Assembly: GCA_937125225.1 (NCBI GenBank)
Contig: CAKZLE010000006.1
Location: 186,001-250,000, forward strand
Origin: an uncultured Spirochaetia bacterium
Lineage (GTDB): Bacteria > Spirochaetota > Spirochaetia > CAKZLE01
Length of the DNA: 64,000 bases
Reading direction: 5' to 3'
Part shown: positions 10,259-51,366 of the stretch, in pieces
How positions within the stretch are numbered: position 1 is the stretch's first letter
How the letters are laid out: each line of letters begins with the position of its first letter
Notes under the pieces: generated by a model
The model's database searches: none
Told to the model about the DNA's origin: nothing
Seen by the model: the letters and a program-made list of their open reading frames with translations, nothing else
Program-made: the position numbers and the translations under genes

Positions 10259-10313
10259 TGTTTTCACTTAGTATCATATCGTATATACTTGTAGCATAAG
10301 AGGTACTTTGTAT

Positions 10314-13300
10314 ATGGTAAAACGGTATATGGCGATCTGCCTGCTCATCATGATAGTATTATTCAACTCATGTACTACACTCAGTAAGACCAACGCCCTA
10401 GAAGAGCCTGAAGCCACGGTCGTCGATGATGTCACATCAAGTACAGAAACAGCATCAGAGTTCGATCAGGAAAGAATAGAAGTCGTCACTGAAGAGGAAC
10501 CTAAAGTCATAGAGCCAGTCGAAGAACCGGCAATTACAGAACCTGTAGAAGAACCTACCCCTGAATTGGTTATAGAAGAGCAACCTGAGGAGGAAATTCT
10601 ACCAGTCGAACCTATCCTCGAAATCCCTGTCTTACCACCTCAGAATATCATAGAAGCCATTGAAGCCAATGATCTCCTCCTTGCTGAGAAGTTCATCCTT
10701 CTCGATTCTTCCGTAACAACTCTCACAGATGAACAGGGCAACACCCCTCTTCACTTAGCAGCATCCTTAGCTCAACCCAATATGATCCAACTCCTACTCA
10801 AACATGGTGCTGAACTTTCAACTCAGAATTCTTATGGTAGACTACCAATACATACCGCAGCGGCCCTATCTTTCGAGCTAGCCCACCTCCTGCTGGGGAA
10901 CGGATCACTTCTCTATATCCCGGATGATACCGGTGTGACTGTCCTCGATATGGCATTCTCAAGTGGACCAACTGCAGTCAGCGCCCTTCTAGGAGAGCAG
11001 TTCGTTAACTCACTGGATATGAAAGGGAACTCTCCTCTCCATTTTGCAGCTCAGAGAGGTGAGCTGAACATTGTACGAGAACTCATCGAGTACGGTGCAG
11101 ATATCAACATAACCAATTCAGACCAGATGAGTCCTCTCGATGTAGCTTTTTCTTTCATCGATAGTGATATTCATGTCCAGATAGCTCGCCTACTTATCGA
11201 GAACTATTCCCAGATACCTCAAGACACGAACTTCTATTATGCATATCAGACACTCTCAAGTGATGTGAACATTCGATTCGAGGGAGGGACTACCCCCCTA
11301 CACTTTGCAGCACTATATCATCATCCCGCATTATTACGAACCTTCATCGCAGAACATGCCTATCTTGAGGCACGAGATGAGCAAGAGGACACTCCACTTC
11401 ATATCGCAGTGATCCATAACTATTTCGATATCATGAGACTACTCGTAGATGCAGGTGCTGATGTGGATGCTCGAGATACGAGAAACAATACCCCGTTACA
11501 TCTTGCCGTGACGAATAATACCGATCAACTCATAGCAGACTATCTCCTCAAGAAAGGTGCTGAAGTCGATAGCAAGAACAGTTTTGGAGAGACCCCGTTA
11601 CATAGTGCCATGCCGGCTACTATCGATACAGGATTCGTCTCACTACTGCTCTCCTATGGTGCAGATCCTGACAGCCGGAACACCTCTGGGAATATACCCA
11701 TCATGGCTGCCCTAGCCCAAGATAATAAAACTGCAGTAGACCTTCTCCTTGATAAAGGTACCGATATCTATGCGAGTAACTATCACAGTATCAACCCTCT
11801 GATCAGAGCTCTCATAAAAGGGACTGAGACCATCTCATGGTTCTATCGCCCCTATATGAATCAGACCTCTGATGGAGAGGGGAATTCCCCCCTCCATATA
11901 GCCGTGATGGTAGATGCTACCACTGAGGTCATCGAACAGATCATAACAGCTGAGGCATCATTGGATGAGCGAAATCTCCAAGGAGAGACTCCTCTCCATC
12001 TAGCTGTAGGATATGATTACCCTGAAGCTGCCGGACTCTTGACTGTATCCGGGGCAAATCCTTTCATTAACAATAACAGAGGGAAGTCACCTATCGTTCT
12101 AGCCTTCGATAAGGGAATCGAGTTCACAAGCTTCATCATCAACGAGGCGAACCTGCAGGGCAATGATTCAGAGGGAAACTCTCCTCTCCATCTAGCAGCC
12201 CTCTGGGATTTTCCTGAAATAACCTCATTTCTCATCTCTTCGGGAGCTGCAGTCAACGCCCGAAACACTCAGGGACTCACCCCTATGCATTATGCGGTGA
12301 AGAATAATAGTGTCGCAGTCTGCAGGATCCTTCATGAACATGGGGCAGGGATAGATGCCCGTGACAACTATGGGAACACTCCTCTCCATACCGCAATCTC
12401 CTGGGGTTCATCACAGAGTGCTAAATTACTACTACTCTTGGGGGCGAATGTCGAATTACGGAACCTCAGCGGGAATACTCCTCTCCATACCGCAGCCCTT
12501 CATCAGGATAGTCTTGGAATCAATATGCTCCATGAATACGGTGCATCACTCGAGACTCGAGATAATACCGGAATGACTCCGCTCCTTCTTTCCTCGAGAA
12601 AGAACTACTGGACCATATCACAACTTTTGATCGAACTCGGAGCCGATTACAACACGAGAGATGATAGAGGGAACACCCCTCTTCATGAGGCGGTAAGAAA
12701 CAAGAATAAGAAGACCTGTCAGTTATTGTCTGATAAGGGAGCAGATATCTATGCTGAGAACAGCTATGGGGACACACCCCTGATGATCGCTTTTAAATCC
12801 GGTGTCGAGATCGTGGACTGGTTCATCACCGGACCTATGGTATTCGATAGAGATGATGAGGGGAACACCCCATTACATACCGCTATCAGACTCAACACCT
12901 CTGCAGATGTCATCCTTAGTCTGATTGAGAAAGGAGCTGATATAAACAGCAGGAATAACAAGATCAATACCCCTCTCCATAATGCCTTCCTAGCGAATAA
13001 TAAGAGTGCTGTCATGGTCTTGGTAGAAGCTGGAGCGGATCTGTTCAGTCGAAACGGAGATAGTGAGACTCCTCTTACCATGGCATTCACCCAAGGGCTA
13101 GACGCCCTCTCATGGGTCATCAACAGTGAGAATGTGAATACTACGGATCAATACGGTAATACGGCTCTCCATGCTGCAGCCACTTTTGGCTCCCTTGAGG
13201 CAATAGAGTTCATGCTGAACCTTGGGGCCGACCCTAATCTTACCAACCTCTCCGGCGACTCACCTGCAGAGGTTGCACTCAAGAATGGCCAACTTGAGAT

Positions 13301-13334
13301 CATGAATCGTCTACGAGTGTTCGAGTTAGATTGA
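10314..13334 (+). CDS. Large ankyrin-repeat lipoprotein
   Basis: A 1006-residue protein. The N terminus is a lipoprotein signal (MVKRYMAICLLIMIVL) with lipobox LFNSC, so it should be exported and lipidated. Next is a low-complexity region of about 90 residues rich in Glu, Pro and Val, then about 26 ankyrin repeats (GNTPLHLAA...LL..GAD...RN) that fill the rest. Five repeats are a short degenerate variant with the pattern AF..G......F or SW, each followed by a strong GNSPLH or GNTPLH repeat, giving a higher-order periodicity. The start at 10314 is preferred over an upstream TTG because AGAGG lies nine bases before it. No catalytic domain is seen; a binding or scaffolding role at the cell envelope is an inference. 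Its stop overlaps the HAD gene start. Confidence 0.88.
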   Translation: MVKRYMAICLLIMIVLFNSCTTLSKTNALEEPEATVVDDVTSSTETASEFDQERIEVVTEEEPKVIEPVEEPAITEPVEEPTPELVIEEQPEEEILPVEPILEIPVLPPQNIIEAIEANDLLLAEKFILLDSSVTTLTDEQGNTPLHLAASLAQPNMIQLLLKHGAELSTQNSYGRLPIHTAAALSFELAHLLLGNGSLLYIPDDTGVTVLDMAFSSGPTAVSALLGEQFVNSLDMKGNSPLHFAAQRGELNIVRELIEYGADINITNSDQMSPLDVAFSFIDSDIHVQIARLLIENYSQIPQDTNFYYAYQTLSSDVNIRFEGGTTPLHFAALYHHPALLRTFIAEHAYLEARDEQEDTPLHIAVIHNYFDIMRLLVDAGADVDARDTRNNTPLHLAVTNNTDQLIADYLLKKGAEVDSKNSFGETPLHSAMPATIDTGFVSLLLSYGADPDSRNTSGNIPIMAALAQDNKTAVDLLLDKGTDIYASNYHSINPLIRALIKGTETISWFYRPYMNQTSDGEGNSPLHIAVMVDATTEVIEQIITAEASLDERNLQGETPLHLAVGYDYPEAAGLLTVSGANPFINNNRGKSPIVLAFDKGIEFTSFIINEANLQGNDSEGNSPLHLAALWDFPEITSFLISSGAAVNARNTQGLTPMHYAVKNNSVAVCRILHEHGAGIDARDNYGNTPLHTAISWGSSQSAKLLLLLGANVELRNLSGNTPLHTAALHQDSLGINMLHEYGASLETRDNTGMTPLLLSSRKNYWTISQLLIELGADYNTRDDRGNTPLHEAVRNKNKKTCQLLSDKGADIYAENSYGDTPLMIAFKSGVEIVDWFITGPMVFDRDDEGNTPLHTAIRLNTSADVILSLIEKGADINSRNNKINTPLHNAFLANNKSAVMVLVEAGADLFSRNGDSETPLTMAFTQGLDALSWVINSENVNTTDQYGNTALHAAATFGSLEAIEFMLNLGADPNLTNLSGDSPAEVALKNGQLEIMNRLRVFELD

Positions 13335-25169: not shown

Positions 25170-26633
25170 ATGGAACAATATGATGTACTGATCATCGGAG
25201 CCGGGGTCATAGGTACCTCTATAGCACGAGAACTCTCTGCATACGACCTCAAAACAGCAGTTATTGAGAAAGAGGCAGACGTATGCTTCGGCATCAGCAG
25301 CAGGAACAGTGGAGTGGTACATTCTGGAATTCATTATGCTCCAGGTTCACTGCGGGCACTGCATGCTGTACGAGGAAATGAACTGTTCGAAGAGCTCTGC
25401 TCTCAACTGACAGTACCCTATGAGAGAATCGGTAAACTCACCGTAGCCTTTGAGGAATCTCAATTCCCCACTCTCGAGAAGCTCTATACTCAAGGAGTAG
25501 AGAACGGGGTCCCTGATCTTCAGATCATCGATGCAAAGAGGATGCAGGAACTCCAACCCGGAGTGGGAGGAGCGCGAGCACTCTACTCACCCTCTACAGG
25601 TATCGTAGGGCCCTATGAACTGACAATAGCACTCGCAGAACATGCACATGCTCATGGAGTCGACTTCATCTTCACCGAAGAGGTAGTCTCCATAAAGAAT
25701 AGATCAGATCTATATGAGATACAGACAAAAAAAGGATCACAAATCTCAGCGAAGATCATCATCGATGCGGCAGGCCTTTACTCAGATTCGATCGCTCATC
25801 TAGCAGGGATCGATTCACCTAGGATTTATCCCTGTCGTGGAGAGTACTATGTTCTCGATAAGAGATTGGAGGATGAACTGCAGTTGCTGATCTATCCGGT
25901 TCCCGGAAACCATAGTAGCGGCTTGGGGATCCATCTGACCAATACGGTAGAAGGGAATATTCTCATTGGTCCGAGTAATGACTATATAGAGAATAAGGAG
26001 GATCTGAGTACAACAGTCCAGATTCTTGCGAGATTACGGGAAGAGGGACATGAGTTACTCCCCTCTCTGACCTCTTCTGATTTTATCAGGTCCTTTGCTG
26101 GGTTGAGACCAAAACTCACCCCCCCAGAAGTCGGTGGATTCGGAGATTTCATCATCGAAGATCATGACCGATTCATCCTTCTCATAGGTATTGAGAGCCC
26201 TGGACTCACGGCATCTCCATCTATAGCTATTAGCATTCGAGAGATGATCGCTAACCATATACCCCTTGCCTTGAAGAAAGATTGGGACCCCTCTCTTACG
26301 AGAGAAGAGCGTTTCCTCGAGCTTCCAGAGGACAGACAAGAACAACTCATTGCTGAAGATCCCGATTATGGATCTGTCGTATGCAGGTGTGAGGGGATAA
26401 CCAAAGCCGAGGTCCTTCAGGCTGTAGATAGGATCATGGGACCTGTCACCTATATAGGCATCAAATTACGTTGCAGAGCAATGATGGGAAGATGCCAAGG
26501 AGGCTTCTGTGCACCTAGGATCGCAGAGATCTTAAAGACTGAGAGAGATATCACCATTGATGAACAGTTCTATAAAGGGATCGAGTCCCCTATGTTTGAA
26601 GGACTCCTTCGCGAGGAGAGCCCTCATGAATGA
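25170..26633 (+). CDS. FAD-dependent glycerol-3-phosphate dehydrogenase (GlpA-like) with C-terminal 2Fe-2S domain
   Basis: Oxidises glycerol-3-phosphate to dihydroxyacetone phosphate with FAD. The N-terminal dinucleotide loop is VLIIGAGVIGTSIAREL; RNSGVVHSGIHYAPGS is the DAO-family active-site region. Residues about 405-470 form a BFD-like 2Fe-2S domain with cysteines in VVCRCEGITKAEV and RCQGGFCAPRI. Length 487. The start is clear by family; the ribosome binding site is weak (AGG three to five bases before ATG), and the leader is very short. It is the first of three overlapping genes that resemble anaerobic oxidases with a second flavin subunit and DUF1667. L-2-hydroxyglutarate oxidase is an alternative for the FAD domain alone. 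Confidence 0.83.
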   Translation: MEQYDVLIIGAGVIGTSIARELSAYDLKTAVIEKEADVCFGISSRNSGVVHSGIHYAPGSLRALHAVRGNELFEELCSQLTVPYERIGKLTVAFEESQFPTLEKLYTQGVENGVPDLQIIDAKRMQELQPGVGGARALYSPSTGIVGPYELTIALAEHAHAHGVDFIFTEEVVSIKNRSDLYEIQTKKGSQISAKIIIDAAGLYSDSIAHLAGIDSPRIYPCRGEYYVLDKRLEDELQLLIYPVPGNHSSGLGIHLTNTVEGNILIGPSNDYIENKEDLSTTVQILARLREEGHELLPSLTSSDFIRSFAGLRPKLTPPEVGGFGDFIIEDHDRFILLIGIESPGLTASPSIAISIREMIANHIPLALKKDWDPSLTREERFLELPEDRQEQLIAEDPDYGSVVCRCEGITKAEVLQAVDRIMGPVTYIGIKLRCRAMMGRCQGGFCAPRIAEILKTERDITIDEQFYKGIESPMFEGLLREESPHE

Positions 26634-27876
26634 GAAGATCAACGTCTCGATCCTCATCATAGGAGCTGGTCCAGCTGGTACTGCAGCGGCACTAGGAGCC
26701 AAAGAGGCTGGTGAGGATTCAATCCTCATCATCGATAGAGATACGAGAGCCGGTGGGATTCTCAACCAATGTATTCATGATGGTTTCGGCCTTATGAGAT
26801 ACAAGAGAGCCCTTTCAGGACCTGAATATGCCCAATTGGATATAGACTCCTGTCATAAGAAGAATATTCCCATACTGACTGACACCTATGTTCATACCAT
26901 TATCAAAGGGGATGATCATTTTACGATAAAGGCGATCGCTACAGGTAGACTCTACTCTATCAAAGCCAAAGCGGTCATTCTCGCTATGGGCTGCAGAGAA
27001 AGAACAGCAGGAGCTATCAGCCTGCCGGGGAGTCGTCCTGCAGGAATCTACACTGCTGGTACGGCACAGAGACTTCTCAATATGCAGAATACTCTTGTCG
27101 GAAGAAGTTGTGTCATCGTCGGTTCCGGTGATATCGGACTGATCATGGCAAGAAGAATGACTTTGGAGGGGGCGAAAGTCCAAGCTGTCACAGAACTCCA
27201 GAGTTATCCTGGGGGACTCGATAGGAATATCAGGCAATGCCTTGATGACTTTGACATCCCTCTCTATCTTGAGACCGGCATCGTCTCAGTCCATGGGAAC
27301 GATAGAGTTTGTGGAATCACCATAGCACCCTTGAGATCAGACAGAACACTTGATATGAAGAATTCCCAGTATATCACCTGCGATACGATTCTACTGTCAG
27401 TGGGACTCATTCCTGAGAACGAGCTCTCTCGCTCTCTTGATATAGCTATAGATCCCATCACGCAGGGACCAATCGTAACAGGAGACCTCATGACCTCCTG
27501 TCCTGGGGTCTTTGCCTGTGGGAATGTCCTACAGGTCCATGATATCGTGGATCTTGTATCAGAAGAGGCAAAGAGAGCAGGAAGAACCGCAGTCTCTTTT
27601 GTTTCCGGCGCCTATGCTGATACAAAAGAACTCTTCAGTATCTATGCAGGAGAGAAGATACGCTACTGTGTCCCACAGGTCATTACCCCGAGTTCTACCA
27701 CAACCCTCTCACTAAGGGTAACTGAGCCAATTACCGATGCGACGATATCCATCACAAATGATGCTACTTTGATCAAGAAACGACGCTACTCCTTCACGCA
27801 ACCATCAGAGATGATTCAGATCGAAATATCAGTCCCAGAAAACCTAGTAGGATCGTTGGAGGTCAATTGTGAATAA
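26626..27876 (+). CDS. NAD(P)/FAD-dependent disulfide-oxidoreductase-like subunit of the glycerol-3-phosphate oxidase
   Basis: 416 residues with two dinucleotide folds: ILIIGAGPAGTAAALGAKEAG at the N terminus and CVIVGSGDIGLIMARRM in the middle, plus GVFACGNVLQVHD near the C-terminal FAD contact. ILNQCIHDGFG carries one Cys near the position of a redox-active site. Start at 26626 is set by GAGGAGAG upstream; it overlaps the preceding gene by 8 bases, and DUF1667 overlaps its end. In related operons the trio oxidises glycerol-3-phosphate and passes electrons to NAD or ferredoxin. Confidence 0.83.
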   Translation: MNEKINVSILIIGAGPAGTAAALGAKEAGEDSILIIDRDTRAGGILNQCIHDGFGLMRYKRALSGPEYAQLDIDSCHKKNIPILTDTYVHTIIKGDDHFTIKAIATGRLYSIKAKAVILAMGCRERTAGAISLPGSRPAGIYTAGTAQRLLNMQNTLVGRSCVIVGSGDIGLIMARRMTLEGAKVQAVTELQSYPGGLDRNIRQCLDDFDIPLYLETGIVSVHGNDRVCGITIAPLRSDRTLDMKNSQYITCDTILLSVGLIPENELSRSLDIAIDPITQGPIVTGDLMTSCPGVFACGNVLQVHDIVDLVSEEAKRAGRTAVSFVSGAYADTKELFSIYAGEKIRYCVPQVITPSSTTTLSLRVTEPITDATISITNDATLIKKRRYSFTQPSEMIQIEISVPENLVGSLEVNCE

Positions 27877-28252
27877 TGATTCTACCACCAAGATACTGAC
27901 CTGTATCATATGTCCCAACAGTTGCAGGATATCCCTCACATATGATCCTGATACTCAAGAGATCACCTCGATACATGGAGCTCTCTGTAAAAAAGGGAAG
28001 GATTGGGTAGAGCAGGAGCTCTTTAAACCTATGAGAACCCTCTGTTCTTCCATACGAATAACAGGGGGAAGAGAACCCCTCGCGAGTATACGAACGACAA
28101 AAGCTGTCTCTCTCTCAAGCATCAAAGAGCTCATGGAGCTGATCAAAGCATCCTCGATCAAAGCTCCAGTCGAGATTGGACAGGTAGTCCTTTCAGAACC
28201 TCTTGGTCTCGATTGCGATGTTATCATCACCCGAGGTGTAGATAGACTCTAG
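27869..28252 (+). CDS. DUF1667 family protein, small cysteine subunit of the oxidase operon
   Basis: 127 residues starting at GTG with GGAGG seven bases upstream. The N terminus carries LTCIICPNSCRISL and later GALCKKG, a C-x2-C-x3-C...C set that may bind an iron-sulfur cluster or zinc. DUF1667 proteins are usually encoded exactly here, after the two flavin subunits of glycerol-3-phosphate oxidation systems. It overlaps the previous gene by 8 bases. Function in electron transfer is inferred. Confidence 0.82.
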   Translation: MNNDSTTKILTCIICPNSCRISLTYDPDTQEITSIHGALCKKGKDWVEQELFKPMRTLCSSIRITGGREPLASIRTTKAVSLSSIKELMELIKASSIKAPVEIGQVVLSEPLGLDCDVIITRGVDRL

Positions 28253-30324: not shown

Positions 30325-30870
30325 ATGAGTAAATTAGTAATATTATTTAGTATCCTCATCTTACTATTCACAGTGGTTACTGTGTCAGCAAAAGGTACGG
30401 TAGAAGAGACAGAGGTCCAAATCAAGCCTCAAGTTGAGATGGACCCTAGAGAGGCACAACTAAGAGAGCAGCTGACAGATCTCCAATACCGTGTGACACA
30501 GGAAGCTGCAACAGAGCAGGCCTTCAAAAATGCCTACTGGGATAATAAGAGATTAGGAATCTATGTTGATATCGTATCGGGAGAACCGTTATTCAGCTCA
30601 AACGATAAGTTCCAATCAGGATCGGGATGGCCGAGTTTCACGAAGCCATTGGATGAAGAGAATATGTTTGAGATCCAGGACAACTCACATGGGATGAGGA
30701 GGACCGAGGTACGTAGTGCAGAGGCTGACAGTCATCTCGGGCATCTTTTCAATGATGGTCCAACAGATTCAGGTCTAAGATACTGTATAAATTCAGCATC
30801 GCTGAGGTTCATTGCAGTTGAAGATCTAGAAAGTGAGGGGTATGAAGAATACCGTCACCTGTTCAACTAG
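30325..30870 (+). CDS. msrB: Exported peptide-methionine (R)-S-oxide reductase
   Basis: Reduces methionine-R-sulfoxide in proteins. Residues 1-22 are a signal peptide ([19 protein letters not shown]), so the enzyme works outside the cytoplasm. The MsrB domain (about 50-180) is complete: [45 protein letters not shown] and the catalytic Cys in [12 protein letters not shown]. The two CxxC zinc pairs of other MsrB forms are absent, and no resolving Cys is evident. It must be re-reduced by an exported thioredoxin-like partner, which is not in the window. Monocistronic. Confidence 0.94.
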
Positions 30871-34150: not shown

Positions 34151-34506
34151 GTGTTGAGTATAGTACCGAAATAGAGGAGTTTGAGCAATAAAGCTATTCT
34201 GTTTTGTCATCACTATTATGGAATAGAGAGAACTCTTCGAGCTCATTCAAACGACCTAAGAACTTTTCATATCAAAATCGGTCTAACGATGATCAAACCA
34301 AGAAGTAATACTAGAATGAGAGCAACCTAACCCAAAGCCCGTTCAAAAGAGAACTGTTTATAAGAAGCTCAACATAATACTCCTTCAAAAAATAGATTAT
34401 TATACCCAATCAAGTAAGTACCTAGAATATGCTACCACTGTTCTTAGTAGAATGAACTTTCAGATTTCTATTCTCTCAACCAAATATGATATGATATACT
34501 CTTCTT
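34151..34506. other. Intergenic region with little recognisable content
   Basis: This 356-base A+T-rich gap separates the divergent ABC-F and CxxC-peptide genes. I see no ORF with a ribosome binding site, no strong hairpin and no RNA family. The end near 34480-34500 holds repeated TATGATATGATATACT, a likely -10 region for the CxxC-peptide gene. Confidence 0.4.
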
Positions 34507-34656
34507 ATGGTCAGAGGAACAAGTTATAAACTCATCGTGGTATCTGTACTCATCTTATCTGCTGCAGCTATGATCTTCGGGATTGCTCGAGGTGAGGCCG
34601 TGGAGATCTTTCATAAAGGGATCACGATCTGCCTCTCCTGCATAGGGATAGGATAG
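34507..34656 (+). CDS. Small CxxC membrane peptide, CD1871A-like
   Basis: 49 residues: a short basic N terminus, one hydrophobic helix (LIVVSVLILSAAAMIFGIA), then RGEAVEIFHKGITICLSCIGIG ending in Cys42-x2-Cys45. This layout (one membrane span, RGEA, terminal ICLxCIGIG) matches the CD1871A family of CxxC small proteins, known from anaerobes next to polyferredoxin membrane proteins. Its stop codon directly abuts the ATG of such a gene here, so the two are surely co-translated. The Cys pair may dock or reduce a partner at the membrane; that is an inference. Confidence 0.82.
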   Translation: MVRGTSYKLIVVSVLILSAAAMIFGIARGEAVEIFHKGITICLSCIGIG

Positions 34657-35544
34657 ATGAAAAGAATCAAAAGGCTCTATGTCCAGCTGCTATTCACTCT
34701 GGTTACAAACAGCTACCTTGTTGGATTCTTCAAGGGTAAGATCTATCGCGGAGGGGCTAAGCACATATGTGTTCCAGGCCTCAACTGCTACTCATGTCCT
34801 GGAGCACTCGGCTCCTGTCCCATGGGAGCAATCCAGACAACATTAGCCGGTTACCAGCAGAGAGTCTCTTTCTATGTCCTGGGTTTCCTTGCTATGTTGA
34901 CTACAGCAACCGGGAGATTGACCTGTGGGTGGCTCTGTCCCTTTGGACTGATCCAAGAAAGCCTGTATAGGATTCCCACAAAGAAGTTCACCCATACCAA
35001 AACCCCTTCAGGGACTCCCACTAAGAAATCGGTCTTCCGTTATACGAAATATCTGATACTGTTACTGACAGTATTCATCCTACCCGCATTCATTCGTAAT
35101 GATGTGGGACTCGGAAATACCTGGTTCTGCGCCTACGTCTGTCCTGCAGGCACAGTAGAGGCGGCGATCCCACTTCTTCTAGCGAATTCTGGTCTTAGAT
35201 CGATCATCGGCTGGCAGTTTCTCTGGAAAGCAATCATTGCCTCTCTGGTCATAACCTTCTCTGTCTTTGAGAACCGTCCCTTCTGTAAATATGGCTGCCC
35301 TTTAGGAGCTGTCTATAGTCTTGGTAATAAAGCCTCGCTATTCTATCTGGAGGCAGATCATACGATCTGTATCAGCTGTGGTAAATGTCAGACGGTGTGT
35401 CCTATGAATCTGGACCCAGTAAGCGAACTCAAGAGTATAGAGTGTATTAGGTGCGGCAACTGTAAGGAAATATGTCCTGTGACTGCGATATCATGGCAAT
35501 ATTCACTCAGTAAGACGAAAATATCAGAGCAAAAAACTCAGTGA
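34657..35544 (+). CDS. Polyferredoxin membrane protein, NapH/YccM-like 4Fe-4S protein
   Basis: 295 residues with about four membrane segments. Before and between them are cysteine groups CVPGLNCYSCPGALGSCP, CGWLCPFGLIQ, CAYVCPAG and CKYGCPLGAVY, typical of the NapH/RdxA-type membrane domain; the C-terminal 60 residues carry two 4Fe-4S motifs CISCGKCQTVCP and CIRCGNCKEICP. It should pass electrons across or along the membrane, but no terminal oxidoreductase gene is adjacent. It pairs with the 49-residue CxxC peptide with zero spacing. Electron donor and acceptor are unknown. Confidence 0.87.
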   Translation: MKRIKRLYVQLLFTLVTNSYLVGFFKGKIYRGGAKHICVPGLNCYSCPGALGSCPMGAIQTTLAGYQQRVSFYVLGFLAMLTTATGRLTCGWLCPFGLIQESLYRIPTKKFTHTKTPSGTPTKKSVFRYTKYLILLLTVFILPAFIRNDVGLGNTWFCAYVCPAGTVEAAIPLLLANSGLRSIIGWQFLWKAIIASLVITFSVFENRPFCKYGCPLGAVYSLGNKASLFYLEADHTICISCGKCQTVCPMNLDPVSELKSIECIRCGNCKEICPVTAISWQYSLSKTKISEQKTQ

Positions 35545-35613: not shown

Positions 35614-35659
35614 ACACTACATTTAGATTGACTTCAGACATATACACAATATATAGTGT
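35614..35659. promoter_or_regulatory. Tandem NrdR boxes
   Basis: Box 2, ACACAATATATAGTGT (35644-35659), matches the known NrdR consensus ACACWATATATWGTGT at every position. Box 1, ACACTACATTTAGATT (35614-35629), matches at about 12 of 16. Their starts are 30 bases apart, near three helical turns, the usual arrangement for cooperative NrdR binding. They cover the promoter of the class III ribonucleotide reductase operon. Confidence 0.9.
35628..35657 (+). promoter_or_regulatory. Promoter of the nrdD operon
   Basis: TTGACT (35628-35633), 18-base spacer, TATAGT (35652-35657). The -10 lies inside NrdR box 2, so bound NrdR would block RNA polymerase. Transcription would begin near 35664, giving a leader of about 170 bases before nrdD. 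Confidence 0.7.
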
Positions 35660-38540: not shown

Positions 38541-38936
38541 ATGATCAAACAACCATACAAGATAGTCGTATTTGGAAAAGAGGGATGTCAGAAGTGTCAT
38601 ACCCTGAATCAGAGAATAGATAAGATGCTCACGAGAGATGAATGGAAGGACTTCTCAAAAGCCTACGTCGACGTCCTCACAGAACAGGGTCTCATCGAAT
38701 TCTGTAATACCGAGTGCATCAATCCTCAGAGGATTCCAGCGATGACGGTTCAGAGACTCAACAAGGAAACTAACACCTATGAGTATATTCCGAACCCACA
38801 TCACAACTCTGTAGATGAGGCTTGTGGATCTTTTAAGCTCTATACCTATCTAGGTGTTCAGACAGATTATACCACTACCGGGACAATCACCCCAAAGATG
38901 ATCAAGAGCATTCTTACGAGCGCACAAACGAACTGA
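38541..38936 (+). CDS. Thioredoxin-fold redoxin of the nrdD operon
   Basis: 131 residues. The N terminus IVVFGKEGCQKCHTLNQRI is a beta strand, redox-active CQKC (Cys16, Cys19) and helix as in glutaredoxin/NrdH; PQRIPAMTV supplies the cis-Pro. Unlike NrdH it has an extra Cys pair CNTEC (Cys55, Cys59) and a longer C terminus. Lying between nrdD and nrdG, it is the likely electron donor to NrdD. Some class III reductases are known to use thioredoxin or NrdH-like proteins instead of formate. GGAG stands upstream of the ATG. Confidence 0.78.
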   Translation: MIKQPYKIVVFGKEGCQKCHTLNQRIDKMLTRDEWKDFSKAYVDVLTEQGLIEFCNTECINPQRIPAMTVQRLNKETNTYEYIPNPHHNSVDEACGSFKLYTYLGVQTDYTTTGTITPKMIKSILTSAQTN

Positions 38937-45205: not shown

Positions 45206-45781
45206 GTGAAAAGTATTAAAGGAACTAAGACAGAACAGAATCTTCTTAAATCGTTCGCTGGTGAATCACAAGCTAGAAACAGATATACATATTTTTCTAG
45301 TGTAGCCAAGAAAGAGGGGTATATCCAAATTTCTCAGATCTTTGCAGAAACTGCTGACCAAGAAAAAGAGCATGCAAAACGTTTCTTTAAATTCCTTGAA
45401 GGGGGACCTCTTGAGATCACGGCAACCTATCCTGCAGGAATGATCGGTACCACAGAAGAGAATCTAGCAGAATCAGCTGCTGGAGAGAATGAGGAATGGA
45501 CAGAACTCTATCCGGAATTCGCTAAGACCGCAGAAGAGGAAGGTTTCCCCATTATTGCAGCAGTGTATAGGGCCGTCTGTGTAGCAGAGAAACGACACGA
45601 AGAAAGATATAAGAATCTTCTAAGAAAGGTAAAAGATGGTTCTTCTTTTAAACAGGGACAACCAGTTGTATGGAGATGTCTCAATTGTGGATACATCTAT
45701 GAAGGTGCAGAAGCTCCAAAAAAATGTCCTGCTTGTGATCATCCACAGTCCTATTTTGAAGTTTTTCACGAAGTCGTATAA
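45206..45781 (+). CDS. rbr: Rubrerythrin
   Basis: Reduces hydrogen peroxide to water with electrons from rubredoxin. Residues 1-145 are the diiron four-helix bundle ([63 protein letters not shown]) and 155-191 the rubredoxin-like Fe(Cys)4 domain ([20 protein letters not shown]). The start is GTG, with AAGGAG upstream, and the family N terminus [13 protein letters not shown] fits. First of five cluster genes for oxygen and peroxide removal. Confidence 0.96.
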
Positions 45782-45846
45782 AAAACTGGATGATTTAAGA
45801 ATCTTTCAGTATCTTAAGATGTATACCTAGTATACGGAGGTAGTTT

Positions 45847-46233
45847 ATGGCAATTGCAGTAAAAGAAGGAATCTATATCTGTTCTTTATGTGGGAATATG
45901 GTGGAGATGATCAAAGTTGGCGGAGGGGAGTTGGTTTGCTGCGGGCAACCAATGGAACTTCTTGAAGAAAAGAGCGCAGATTCTTCTACAGAGAAGCATG
46001 TACCGGTGATAGAGAAAGTCGAAGGTGGATTTAGAGTATACGTAGGATCCACTCTTCACCCTATGACAGATGCACACTTTATCCAGTGGATAGAACTGCT
46101 TGTCGGAGATGTCTCATATAAAGCATTCTTGAAACCAGGAGATGTTCCAGAAGCATTCTTCTGTATAGATGCAGATATAAAAGACGTTTCTGCCCGTGAA
46201 TATTGTAATTTACACGGTTTATGGAAGGGATAA
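45847..46233 (+). CDS. dfx: Desulfoferrodoxin, superoxide reductase (2Fe-SOR)
   Basis: Reduces superoxide to hydrogen peroxide without making oxygen. 128 residues: the desulforedoxin-like centre I ligands are YICSLCGN and VCCGQP; centre II ligands are [24 protein letters not shown] and YCNLHGLW. All cysteines and histidines are present. GGAGG lies upstream. Its product peroxide is the substrate of the rubrerythrin encoded just before. Confidence 0.96.
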
Positions 46234-46236
46234 TTA

Positions 46237-46746
46237 ATGAAGATTAAACAAGAGATGCTAGATGCTTTGAATGAACAGTTCGCTAAAGAACGGAACTCTG
46301 CCTATCTATATGAAGCTATGGCATCAGATTCTATTTTCAAAAACAGAAAAGGGATCGGAGCTTGGTTCACCAGGCAAGCACAAGAAGAATTGATCCATGC
46401 AGAGAAGATCTATGGCTTTATCCTTGAAAGAGGTGGTAAACCAGTCTTCTCTCAACTTGATAAGCCCCAAGCAAGTTGGGACTCATTACGAGAAGTCTTC
46501 GAAGCCACTCTAGAACATGAACGGTTCATCTCAGATTCGATCATCACTCTAGTGAAAAAAGCAAAAGAACTTGATGATACACCAACAGAGTTATTCTTAA
46601 GTTGGTTTGTGACAGAACAGGTCGAAGAAGAATCTTCTGTTGAAGAGATCTTGGTCAAGCTTGACCAGATAGGTGATGATAATCGTGGTATCTATATGTT
46701 AGATAAAGAGCTTGGAGCTCAAAATAATACAACTGAAGGAGAATAA
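46237..46746 (+). CDS. ftn: Ferritin
   Basis: Stores iron and removes free Fe(II). 169 residues, non-haem ferritin: [38 protein letters not shown] and [17 protein letters not shown] hold the diiron ferroxidase Glu/His ligands ([19 protein letters not shown]). It starts three bases after the superoxide reductase stop, so iron storage and superoxide removal are coupled, limiting Fenton chemistry. Confidence 0.94.
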
Positions 46747-47832: not shown

Positions 47833-50800
47833 TTACATAATTTCGCCCATCTCTTTGTAGAACTTCATTCTCTTCTTAGCGTCATCTTCAGCCTTCTGGA
47901 ATAGTTCCTCAGCATGTTCTGGGTTTGTCTTGTAGAGAGCTGTATATCGTCTCTCACCCTTGATGAATTCCTGGTAATCAGCTGTTGGGTCTTTTGTGTC
48001 CCAAGAGAATTTCTTACCATCTTCAAGTTCTGGGTTGAATCTATATAGTGGCCAGTAACCAGCTTCTACGGCTCTCTTCATCTCAACCTGTGAGTATCTC
48101 ATATCGATACCGTGGTTGATACATGGAGCATAACAGAAGATAATTGAAGGTCCCTTATAGTTCACTGCTTCCATAAGTGCTTTCTGTGCATGGTTTCTAT
48201 TAGCACCGAGAGCGATCGAAGCAACATATACATGACCATAGCTCATACACATGAATCCCATGTTCTTCTTACCAAGCTGCTTACCAGCATTAGCGAATTT
48301 AGCTACAGCACCGATTGGAGTAGCTTTTGAAGCCTGTCCACCAGTGTTTGAATATACTTCTGTATCTACAACGAGGATGTTCACATCTCGACCTGAAGCA
48401 ACAACATGGTCAACACCGGAGTATCCGATATCATATGCCCATCCGTCACCACCGAAGATCCAGACTTTCTTATCTACGAAGTAGTCTTTTAGTTCGTTGA
48501 TCTTAGCAACAATCTCTTTTGCTTCACCTTCCGCACTGATAAGTGCAGTATCGATGACTTCAGCTACAGCTTTCTGTGCTGTGATAGCCTCTTCAGTAAC
48601 TTCGTCCCAAAGTTCTAATGAAGCTTTGAGAGCTGCTGTCAACTCTTCGGTAGTTCCCATCTCTAGGATAGTCTCTACCTTTTTCTTCAACAATACTCTG
48701 TTACTGTCTACTGCAAGTCTCATTCCGAATCCATATTCAGCGTTATCTTCGAATAGTGAGTTCCCCCAAGCAGGTCCTCTACCATCGTCTCGTTTACAAT
48801 ATGGAATTGTTGGGAAAGTTCCACCGTAGATCGATGAACAACCAGTCGCATTAGCAACGATCATGTTCTCTCCACAGATCTGTGATACCAGTTTGACATA
48901 TGGTGTCTCACCACAACCCGCACAAGCTCCTGAGAACTCGAAGAGAGGTGTCTTGAACTGCATTCCCTTGACGGTAGATTCTTTTATACCATCAAGAACA
49001 TTATGAGGTAGAGCGTCAAAGAATGTCGCATTCTCGATCTCACCCTTTTCTTTCTCAACTTCTAATGTACTGAACTGTAGTGATTTGACCTTAGTAGGAC
49101 AGGTCTCAATACAAACTCCACAACCCTGACAGTCTTCAGTATAAACCTGAATCTTGAACAGAAGGCCTTTGTCATTCTTAGTCTTGGATACTAAAGTATT
49201 GAAAGATTCTGGTGCATCATTCTCAAGCTCTTTTGGATCGATCTGTTTAGCTCGAATAGCAGCATGAGGACAAGACTGTACACACTGGTTACACTGGATA
49301 CAGGTATCAGCGATCCAGAATGGTACTCTTGATGCAACACCACGTTTCTCGAGTTTGGTGGTTCCCAAAGGAAGTGTTCCATCATAAGACATCTTAGAAA
49401 CTGGGATGTCATCACCCTTAAGGTGCATGATTGGTTGGATGATATCCTGTGCAAAGGCCTCAGCGTCATCCTTGATCAGTTTGACAGGTACATATGCTGC
49501 ACCGACTTCACTAGGTACTACAACCTCTTCTAAGGCAGCAGCAGCTGAATCAACAGCAGCCCAATTCATCTTGATAATATCTTCACCCTTCTTCTCGAAG
49601 GTCTTCTTGATCGCGTCTTTGATCAACTGAATAGCTTCTACTTCAGGAAGAACACCTGAGATCTTGAAGAAAGCAGCCTGCATGACTGTGTTGATCCTTG
49701 TTCCAAGTCCAACAGCTTCAGCGATCTTAAGGGCATTGATGTTGTAGAATTTAATCTTTCGATCGATTATGATCTGCTGATCTTCCGCTGTCAGGTGAGT
49801 GAATACCTCATCTGTAGGGATCTCAGAGTTAAGGAGGAATACCCCATTCTCTTTGAGAGGTCCAAGCATATCATATCGGCCAAGGTAGGCTGAGTTGTGA
49901 CAAGCTACAAAATCAGCACTTGTGATATTCCAGGGCATATTCACTGAACTCTTTCCGAATCGGAGGTGAGAAGTGGTGATACCACCAGATTTCTTCGAGT
50001 CATATACGAAGTAAGCCTGAGCATTAAGATCTGTGTTTCCACCTATGATCTTAATAGAGTTCTTGTTAGCACCTACAGTACCATCTGAACCGAGACCCCA
50101 GAACATGCATGCTTTGACATCTGCTGGAGCTACATTGATCTCTTCGTTCAATGTGATTGACTTGAAAGTCACGTCATCATTGATTCCGACTGTGAAGCCA
50201 TGGAAAGCTTCGCCTTCCATATGATCATAAACAGCCTTAACATGTGAAGGAGTGAATTCCTTACTTGATAATCCGTATCTACCACCGATGACTTTGATAT
50301 CACTTCTTCCGACGGATGCAAGAGCTGCAACAACATCAAGGAAGAGTGGTTCACCGATTGAACCAGGTTCTTTTGTTCTATCGAGTACAGCGATCTGTTT
50401 AACAGTTGCAGGAATCGCATCAACAAAGTCCTTAACAGAGAAGGGTCGGTATAATCTGATCTTGATAGCTCCGACTTTCTCGCCTCTTTCTGTGAGGTAT
50501 CGAACAGTCTGATCGATCGTATCACATGAAGAACCCATAGAGATGAGAATCTTCTCAGCTTTAGGATCTCCAACATAATCGAACAGGTGGTACTGTCGAC
50601 CTGTGATCTCAGCAACCTTGTTCATATAATCCTGTACGATTGCAGGTACTGCATCATAGTACTTGTTGACTGTCTCTCGACCCTGGAAGTATACATCTGG
50701 GTTCTGGGCAGCGACTTTGACGATTGGCTTCTCTGGTCTCATTCCTCGATCTCTGAATCTTTCGATGTATTCAGGTTCGATCAATGACTTCATATCAGCA

Positions 50801-51366
50801 TAACCGATCTCTTCAACTTTCTGAATCTCATGTGAGGTTCTAAAACCATCAAAGAAACTCAAGAAAGGAACTTGTGTCTTCAAAGTAGCAAGGTGTGCTA
50901 CAAGTGCCATATCCATTGTTTCCTGAATTGATGATGCTGCTGTCATTGCGAAACCTGTGTTTCGAGTAGACATAACATCTGAGTGGTCACCGAAAATAGA
51001 AAGTGATTGTGCTGCTAATGATCTAGCCGACACGTGAAAAACTGTTGGGATCATCTCACCAGCAATCTTATGCATGTTAGGAATCATCAATAATAATCCC
51101 TGAGATGCAGTGAATGTAGTAGTTAAAGCACCACCACTCAACGCTCCGTGAACTGCACCAGCCGCTCCTGCTTCTGATTGCATCTCAATTACATCGACAG
51201 TCTTTCCGAATACATTCTCTCGTCCTGTACTTGACCAAGAGTCAGTATACTCACCCATAGGGGAGGAAGGTGTGATTGGATAAATAGCCGCTACTTCACT
51301 GAATGCATATGCAACGTGCGCAGCCGCGGTATTTCCATCGATGGTAACCATTTTTTTATTACCCAT
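47833..51366 (-). CDS. nifJ: Pyruvate:ferredoxin oxidoreductase
   Basis: Converts pyruvate and CoA to acetyl-CoA, CO2 and reduced ferredoxin. The single-chain 1177-residue form has the N-terminal pyrimidine-binding domain (AFSEVAAIYPITPSSPMGEY), the gamma domain, two 4Fe-4S motifs (CIQCNQCVQSCPHAAIR, CQGCGVCIETCP), the proximal cluster Cys (GACAGCGETPY) and the thiamine pyrophosphate domain (GDGWAYDIGYSGVDHV, VYSNTGGQASKATP). GGAG precedes the ATG. Monocistronic. Central enzyme of an anaerobic fermentation. Confidence 0.97.
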   Translation of the reverse strand: MGNKKMVTIDGNTAAAHVAYAFSEVAAIYPITPSSPMGEYTDSWSSTGRENVFGKTVDVIEMQSEAGAAGAVHGALSGGALTTTFTASQGLLLMIPNMHKIAGEMIPTVFHVSARSLAAQSLSIFGDHSDVMSTRNTGFAMTAASSIQETMDMALVAHLATLKTQVPFLSFFDGFRTSHEIQKVEEIGYADMKSLIEPEYIERFRDRGMRPEKPIVKVAAQNPDVYFQGRETVNKYYDAVPAIVQDYMNKVAEITGRQYHLFDYVGDPKAEKILISMGSSCDTIDQTVRYLTERGEKVGAIKIRLYRPFSVKDFVDAIPATVKQIAVLDRTKEPGSIGEPLFLDVVAALASVGRSDIKVIGGRYGLSSKEFTPSHVKAVYDHMEGEAFHGFTVGINDDVTFKSITLNEEINVAPADVKACMFWGLGSDGTVGANKNSIKIIGGNTDLNAQAYFVYDSKKSGGITTSHLRFGKSSVNMPWNITSADFVACHNSAYLGRYDMLGPLKENGVFLLNSEIPTDEVFTHLTAEDQQIIIDRKIKFYNINALKIAEAVGLGTRINTVMQAAFFKISGVLPEVEAIQLIKDAIKKTFEKKGEDIIKMNWAAVDSAAAALEEVVVPSEVGAAYVPVKLIKDDAEAFAQDIIQPIMHLKGDDIPVSKMSYDGTLPLGTTKLEKRGVASRVPFWIADTCIQCNQCVQSCPHAAIRAKQIDPKELENDAPESFNTLVSKTKNDKGLLFKIQVYTEDCQGCGVCIETCPTKVKSLQFSTLEVEKEKGEIENATFFDALPHNVLDGIKESTVKGMQFKTPLFEFSGACAGCGETPYVKLVSQICGENMIVANATGCSSIYGGTFPTIPYCKRDDGRGPAWGNSLFEDNAEYGFGMRLAVDSNRVLLKKKVETILEMGTTEELTAALKASLELWDEVTEEAITAQKAVAEVIDTALISAEGEAKEIVAKINELKDYFVDKKVWIFGGDGWAYDIGYSGVDHVVASGRDVNILVVDTEVYSNTGGQASKATPIGAVAKFANAGKQLGKKNMGFMCMSYGHVYVASIALGANRNHAQKALMEAVNYKGPSIIFCYAPCINHGIDMRYSQVEMKRAVEAGYWPLYRFNPELEDGKKFSWDTKDPTADYQEFIKGERRYTALYKTNPEHAEELFQKAEDDAKKRMKFYKEMGEIM

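Follow-up and report, generated by a model that had tools for sequence, protein, structure and literature searches.

A 49-residue membrane peptide ending in CxxC and the membrane polyferredoxin encoded directly after it probably form the membrane-embedded core of a system that exports electrons to extracytoplasmic thiols, passing them from ferredoxin to a TlpA-type thioredoxin as an alternative to CcdA/DsbD; this reading is drawn from comparison of protein sequences and gene neighbourhoods. The two genes lie in a stretch of 64,000 nucleotides from an uncultured Spirochaetia bacterium, here called the window (Table 1). Comparison across loci shows the peptide, the polyferredoxin and TlpA to behave, as far as gene content and order can tell, as one functional module.

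Table 1 Coordinates of the pair, its surroundings and related loci (positions are those of the window unless a contig or locus is given)
Feature	Position	Strand	Description
Probable promoter −10 region	34485–34506	+	TGATATGATATACT; directly before the peptide start codon; from alignment with sister genus G198
CxxC peptide gene	34507–34656	+	49 codons; coding 34507–34653; stop TAG 34654–34656
Polyferredoxin gene	34657–35544	+	295 aa; ATG at 34657; coding to 35541, stop to 35544
NrdR box	35644–35659		ACACAATATATAGTGT; upstream of nrdD
Glutaredoxin-like protein	38541–38936		131 aa; nrdD on one side, nrdG2 on the other; below cut-off for every NCBIfam family
MsrB	30325–30867		Next door to the pair
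Pyruvate:ferredoxin oxidoreductase	47833–51366	−	TIGR02176, 1720.8 bits; context, outside the unit
Three-gene run	25170–28252		GlpO/LhgO-like FAD oxidase with C-terminal cysteine motif; thioredoxin-reductase-like FAD protein; small CxxC protein
Oxidative-stress cluster of an anaerobe	45206–46746		Rubrerythrin, desulfoferrodoxin and ferritin in a row
Ankyrin-repeat lipoprotein-like protein	10308–13334		1008 aa
Orphan TlpA lipoprotein of the window genome	G000 contig C14, 48478–49074	−	Linked type
CcdA–TlpA fusion, MsrA/B fusion and a thioredoxin together	L148:4807–8293		Window genome
~275-aa CxxC-ended proteins	L193:6225–7043, L194:5631–6515	−	Multi-span; no Pfam match

The original prediction described a one-span peptide abutting a polyferredoxin with zero spacing and nothing else at the locus, and the gene layout agrees with this description. 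Both open reading frames are present, and by their coordinates the ATG of the polyferredoxin is the next base after the peptide stop codon. Upstream is a divergent ABC-F gene, and downstream is nrdD, behind an exact consensus match to the NrdR box with zero mismatches (with up to three mismatches allowed, 0.8 matches per window are expected by chance). nrdD and nrdG were rejected as members of the unit, having this box of their own and not being among the recurrent neighbours at other loci; the nrdD operon is a separate unit. The position of the glutaredoxin-like protein encoded between nrdD and nrdG2 suggests that it may be a reductant for the anaerobic ribonucleotide reductase. Elsewhere, the window holds a three-gene run that looks like a redox unit of its own, as well as an oxidative-stress cluster and a long ankyrin-repeat protein (Table 1).

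Alignment with the sister genus (G198) revealed a conserved TATACT-like element about 10 nt upstream of the peptide ATG, in what is probably the −10 region of a promoter. A consensus scan found no full sigma-70 site before the peptide gene, and no classical ribosome site or Shine–Dalgarno sequence was seen before its ATG. Because the element lies so close to the ATG and no Shine–Dalgarno sequence intervenes, the message of the pair may be nearly leaderless.

The peptide (MVRGTSYKLIVVSVLILSAAAMIFGIARGEAVEIFHKGITICLSCIGIG, with the C terminus CLSCIGIG), encoded once in the window genome, has a single hydrophobic span at about residues 10–26 and a CxxC at residues 42–45, followed by IGIG. It belongs to NCBIfam NF040920, 'CD1871A family CXXC motif-containing protein' (a match of 44.1 bits where the cut-off is 32, with residues 13–49 aligned to positions 2–38 of the 38-position profile), which is a named family without an assigned function; our literature search found no paper using the CD1871A family name. 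A chance open reading frame was ruled out by this match, by conservation (55% identity to the counterpart in a related genus) and by codon-position bias, the differences between the two genes numbering 15, 9 and 23 at the first, second and third codon positions and so falling mostly at the third. Across 60 homologues the C-terminal end C-x-x-C-I-G-x-G, with both of its cysteines, is invariant. The N terminus carries a charge of +3.0 and the C-terminal 21 residues −0.8, and the N terminus is predicted to lie inside and the C-terminal ICLSCIGIG outside. Because of this charge bias, we place the CxxC on the outer side of the membrane, together with six cysteines of the polyferredoxin and the TlpA lipoprotein.

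The expectation that the two proteins act together was upheld by a survey of their co-occurrence. We searched 198 Spirochaetota genomes with the NF040920 family model and, separately, with the polyferredoxin. The peptide was present in 23 genomes, and every polyferredoxin match of at least 120 bits fell in a peptide-bearing genome; matches below 120 bits were to other Fer4_5 families, giving a clean split. The two genes share genomes almost one to one in this phylum, where the only peptide match without an adjoining polyferredoxin was one below the cut-off (30.8 bits, in G010). A scan of 85,000 species then supplied 80 named loci, mostly from Clostridia but also from Selenomonadaceae, Coriobacteriia, Erysipelotrichaceae, Treponema, Deltaproteobacteria and Thermodesulfobacteriaceae; linked loci occur in Bacillota, Coriobacteriia, Spirochaetota, Desulfobacterota and Thermodesulfobacteria. 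In 78 of the 80 the two genes are neighbours in the same orientation, the polyferredoxin usually overlapping the peptide by a few bases or lying within tens of bases of it, and one of the two exceptions carries a broken remnant. The two genes are thus not commonly found apart, the outcome that the original prediction had named as speaking against it. Among 243 Clostridia genomes, 36 had a peptide over the cut-off, with the polyferredoxin at all 38 such loci; two matches below the cut-off (G388 and G457) had no polyferredoxin alongside. In one treponeme genome (L008/L131, G165) the polyferredoxin frame is in two pieces and the peptide is intact.

Clustering the neighbouring genes of the 80 named loci yielded one strongly recurrent further partner, a TlpA/ResA-type thioredoxin that is usually a lipoprotein and whose gene immediately precedes that of the peptide or immediately follows that of the polyferredoxin. 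It is adjacent on the same strand in 70 loci, with none adjacent in the other 10, and it is found at 34 of the 38 Clostridia loci and at most spirochaete loci. The other recurrent neighbours were scattered ABC-type genes and a two-component system, the latter chiefly in Coriobacteriia. In Collinsella and relatives (L063, L079, L080, L084, L085, L089 and L091), a divergent histidine kinase and response regulator lie directly upstream and are candidates for redox or envelope-stress control of the unit. The same clustering bears on the alternative that general thiol repair is not what the unit is for, and that together with TlpA as its dedicated partner it serves some other reductive purpose, for example the reduction of metals or peroxide or the maturation of cytochromes. 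The roles of TlpA family members are varied, and polyferredoxin-type membrane proteins such as CcoG, which acts on copper, have been described as cupric reductases. No metal transporter, oxidase or cytochrome gene was recurrent beside the unit in the 80 named loci, however, and no FMN domain was found in or next to the polyferredoxin; we regard such a task as unlikely.

The link to TlpA is also seen in natural fusions. Two Clostridia genomes encode a single protein of 581 or 730 aa with the order polyferredoxin–linker–span–TlpA, in which Pfam recognizes Redoxin/AhpC-TSA as well as Fer4_5 domains. In these genomes the CxxC peptide forms the extreme C terminus of a multi-span membrane protein of about 275 aa that still ends ICTECIGLG. 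Because the fusions place a span between the two domains, they support a topology in which the polyferredoxin C terminus would be inside and TlpA outside.

No TlpA lies at the locus in the window genome or in sister genus G198, and TlpA is not a member of the same operon there. Each genome has an orphan TlpA lipoprotein at another site, and the two orphans are 55% identical. In a tree whose deep branches are poorly resolved, both group among the operon-linked TlpAs and apart from CcdA-adjacent TlpAs and the window genome's own CcdA-fused one. As judged by this comparison, the window's family carries a split version of the TlpA/peptide/polyferredoxin unit, with TlpA elsewhere in the genome. The original prediction that neither donor nor acceptor is encoded nearby is accordingly right of the locus itself but not of the genome, where the orphan TlpA on another contig is a candidate acceptor and a pyruvate:ferredoxin oxidoreductase is encoded 12 kb away from the pair. 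One might instead take the window copy for a decaying remnant, from which TlpA moved away as CcdA took over. TlpA is indeed outside the operon and the genome does encode a CcdA–TlpA fusion, but all 20 cysteines of the pair are intact, and the sister genus keeps both the same locus, with a polyferredoxin 65% identical, and the same orphan TlpA, which makes decay very improbable.

If the unit does bring reducing power to TlpA, redundancy with CcdA is to be expected. Indeed, carriers of the unit tend to be without CcdA/DsbD, which is absent from 18 of 22 named carriers. Within Spirochaetota, a DsbD_TM domain was found in 4 of 23 carriers compared with 150 of 175 non-carriers (Fisher 5e-11; CcdA/DsbD absent from 19 and 25, respectively), in the family richest in carriers CcdA/DsbD occurred in 0 of 15 carriers and 3 of 6 non-carriers (p = 0.015), and in Clostridia it occurred in 12 of 38 carriers and 114 of 205 non-carriers (p = 0.008), all of these depletion statistics being inflated by shared ancestry and not fully corrected for kinship. 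The window genome is an exception, with a CcdA–TlpA fusion beside MsrA/B; because of this fusion, the unit is not the only route in that genome. The cluster that holds the fusion (L148; Table 1) is a second, conventional extracytoplasmic repair system. The MsrB encoded next door to the pair, which had been put forward as an exported client, was not supported in that role, as MsrB is not a recurrent neighbour of the unit; the CcdA–TlpA fusion could serve MsrB instead.

The polyferredoxin has four predicted spans and matches Pfam Fer4_5 (PF12801; 56.8 bits against a gathering score of 22) and Fer4_7 over their cut-offs. All 18 of its cysteines are 100% conserved among 78 non-redundant homologues. 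Eight lie in two C-terminal [4Fe-4S] ferredoxin motifs, and C90, C94, C210 and C214 form two CX3CP motifs that loop charge predicts to be on the inner side. The remaining six, C38, C44, C47, C54, C158 and C162, are predicted by the same measure to be on the outer side, the C38–C54 loop being the less clear case with a net charge of +3.6 over 44 residues. In related proteins the CX3CP motifs may either hold clusters or form disulphides (PMC5928378). An identity as NapH was ruled out by score, the protein falling far under both curated cut-offs (TIGR02163, 64.3 against 213 bits; NF007013, 56.5 against 234 bits). FMN_bind had no match in the polyferredoxin and no gene for an FMN-binding domain adjoins it, and the DsbD_TM domain (PF02683) had no match in either member of the pair. 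Also absent from the polyferredoxin sequence is CPC-CPC-CHC, which we take to be the cysteine pattern of the catalytic subunit of ferredoxin:thioredoxin reductase.

We used AlphaFold2 to model locus L034, in which the peptide and polyferredoxin read through in frame as 372 aa. The model had a pLDDT of 85.4 and a pTM of 0.83, and the peptide span was better ordered with the polyferredoxin present (pLDDT 93–97) than when the same residues were folded alone (81–89); the C-terminal CxxC end was the less certain part of the co-fold, with block pLDDT values of 77 and 68. A sequence search of the PDB for a solved structural relative matched ferredoxin parts only, and a fold search with the whole model returned zero matches at E ≤ 0.001. 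The ordering of the span would also suit a structural subunit, whose cysteine pair would fill out a metal or Fe-S site on the external side of the polyferredoxin; TlpA would then receive its electrons straight from the cluster, as in ferredoxin:thioredoxin reductase, with no dithiol relay. This possibility, which is doubtful in our estimate, is a variant of the electron-export reading and our confidence in the two overlaps. It would fit the six invariant outer cysteines of the partner and a CxxC that stays at the very C terminus even on a 275-aa scaffold, but CxxC is the common spacing of redox dithiols, and the six outer cysteines, which we guess are enough for one cluster plus one disulphide, would already suffice without those of the peptide.

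In the electron-export mechanism that we favour, electrons from reduced cytosolic ferredoxin would enter the polyferredoxin at its two C-terminal [4Fe-4S] clusters, with the pyruvate:ferredoxin oxidoreductase as the presumed source of reduced ferredoxin. From there they would move to the inner CX3CP cysteines (C90/C94 paired with C210/C214) and on to the six invariant outer cysteines; the outer centre would then reduce the CxxC of the one-span peptide, at its outer end, and the peptide CxxC would reduce the TlpA-type thioredoxin, whose gene adjoins the pair in most species but lies elsewhere in the window genome. The unit would thereby do the job of CcdA/DsbD while drawing on ferredoxin-type carriers and not on cytosolic thioredoxin. 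Because clusters carry one electron and a disulphide takes up two, a setup resembling that of ferredoxin:thioredoxin reductase would be required. We infer the donor, the direction of flow, the assignment of clusters, the redox-thiol role of the CxxC and the eventual clients. The original idea that reducing power is carried from ferredoxin to extracytoplasmic thiols gains support from the comparisons, namely the adjacency of TlpA, the polyferredoxin–TlpA fusions and the lack of CcdA/DsbD in most carriers. A quinol donor is argued against because many carriers, Lachnospiraceae for example, are not known as quinone producers.

Topology and gene linkage alone do not set the direction of flow, and electrons could in principle run inward, with TlpA and the peptide taking them from exported dithiols and the polyferredoxin handing them to the cell, as an oxidase for disulphide formation. 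The linkage is to TlpA-type reductases, however, and not to DsbA, and many carriers are without the reductive transporter CcdA. Ferredoxins are at low potential against thioredoxins, which favours outward flow, and an inward system seems to us highly unlikely.

The pair had been called undescribed, which is only partly so. NCBI has given the peptide family a name, and a preprint (bioRxiv, November 2025; PMC12637426) reports, from a search for stool biomarkers, a three-gene 4Fe-4S/TlpA/CxxC operon in six Clostridia and one other Firmicute; as that operon encodes the same three protein types, the unit itself is not new. The passages of the preprint that concern the operon suggest a redox role and raise the reduction of extracellular targets as a possibility. 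They treat it as a patient biomarker in a handful of gut Firmicutes and give no wider distribution, link to the absence of CcdA, fusions or mechanism; the window copy differs from that operon in its unlinked TlpA and its spirochaete host. In the literature searched we did not find the wide distribution, the near one-to-one coupling, the TlpA fusions, the complementarity with CcdA, the 18+2 cysteine pattern or the split form of the window's family described. New in this analysis are the breadth of the unit, its fusions, its association with missing CcdA, its topology and its split form.

Several known systems resemble the unit in part. The transmembrane thiol transporters CcdA/DsbD (PF02683) bring reducing power to extracytoplasmic TlpA/ResA-type thioredoxins, the job proposed for the unit, but the unit has no DsbD_TM domain, has Fe-S clusters instead of a membrane dithiol pair, has ferredoxin and not thioredoxin as its presumed donor and is distributed in a largely exclusive manner. 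In the Etrx/TlpA–CcdA–MsrAB system of Streptococcus pneumoniae (PMC3914529), surface TlpA-type lipoproteins are also fed electrons through the membrane, although the carrier there is CcdA, with no polyferredoxin or CxxC peptide. The NapH-like proteins (NapH, NosR and RdhC/PceC), whose FMN-linked systems (PMC8238504) are the nearest studied relatives, share the polyferredoxin's Fer4_5 membrane domain, CX3CP motifs and C-terminal 2[4Fe-4S]; the polyferredoxin differs in scoring far below the NapH cut-off, in having no FMN-binding domain, in its extra invariant outer cysteines and in its partners, a thioredoxin and a CxxC peptide. Finally, ferredoxin:thioredoxin reductase uses an Fe-S centre to transfer electrons from ferredoxin to the disulphide of a thioredoxin, as proposed for the unit, but it is soluble and cytosolic, unrelated in sequence and different in its cysteine pattern.

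Proteins that have been exported still require reduced thiols and repair of their methionines, and many anaerobes are without both textbook routes, CcdA and DsbD. For the outside of such cells the unit is a concrete and widespread candidate for thiol reduction, tied to ferredoxin, their main low-potential carrier, and it offers a testable function for the motif-named family NF040920 and for an operon reported as a gut biomarker. We lean slightly towards a broader conclusion, that thioredoxins are reduced across the membrane by a second, unrelated solution, in which a transmembrane chain of Fe-S clusters ends in a separate one-span CxxC peptide; this would be in effect a membrane ferredoxin:thioredoxin reductase, and in large groups of anaerobes, many gut Clostridia and treponemes among them, it would have taken the place of CcdA/DsbD. 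Should an Fe-S chain indeed reduce a disulphide on the outer side of the membrane, the arrangement would be new to biochemistry.
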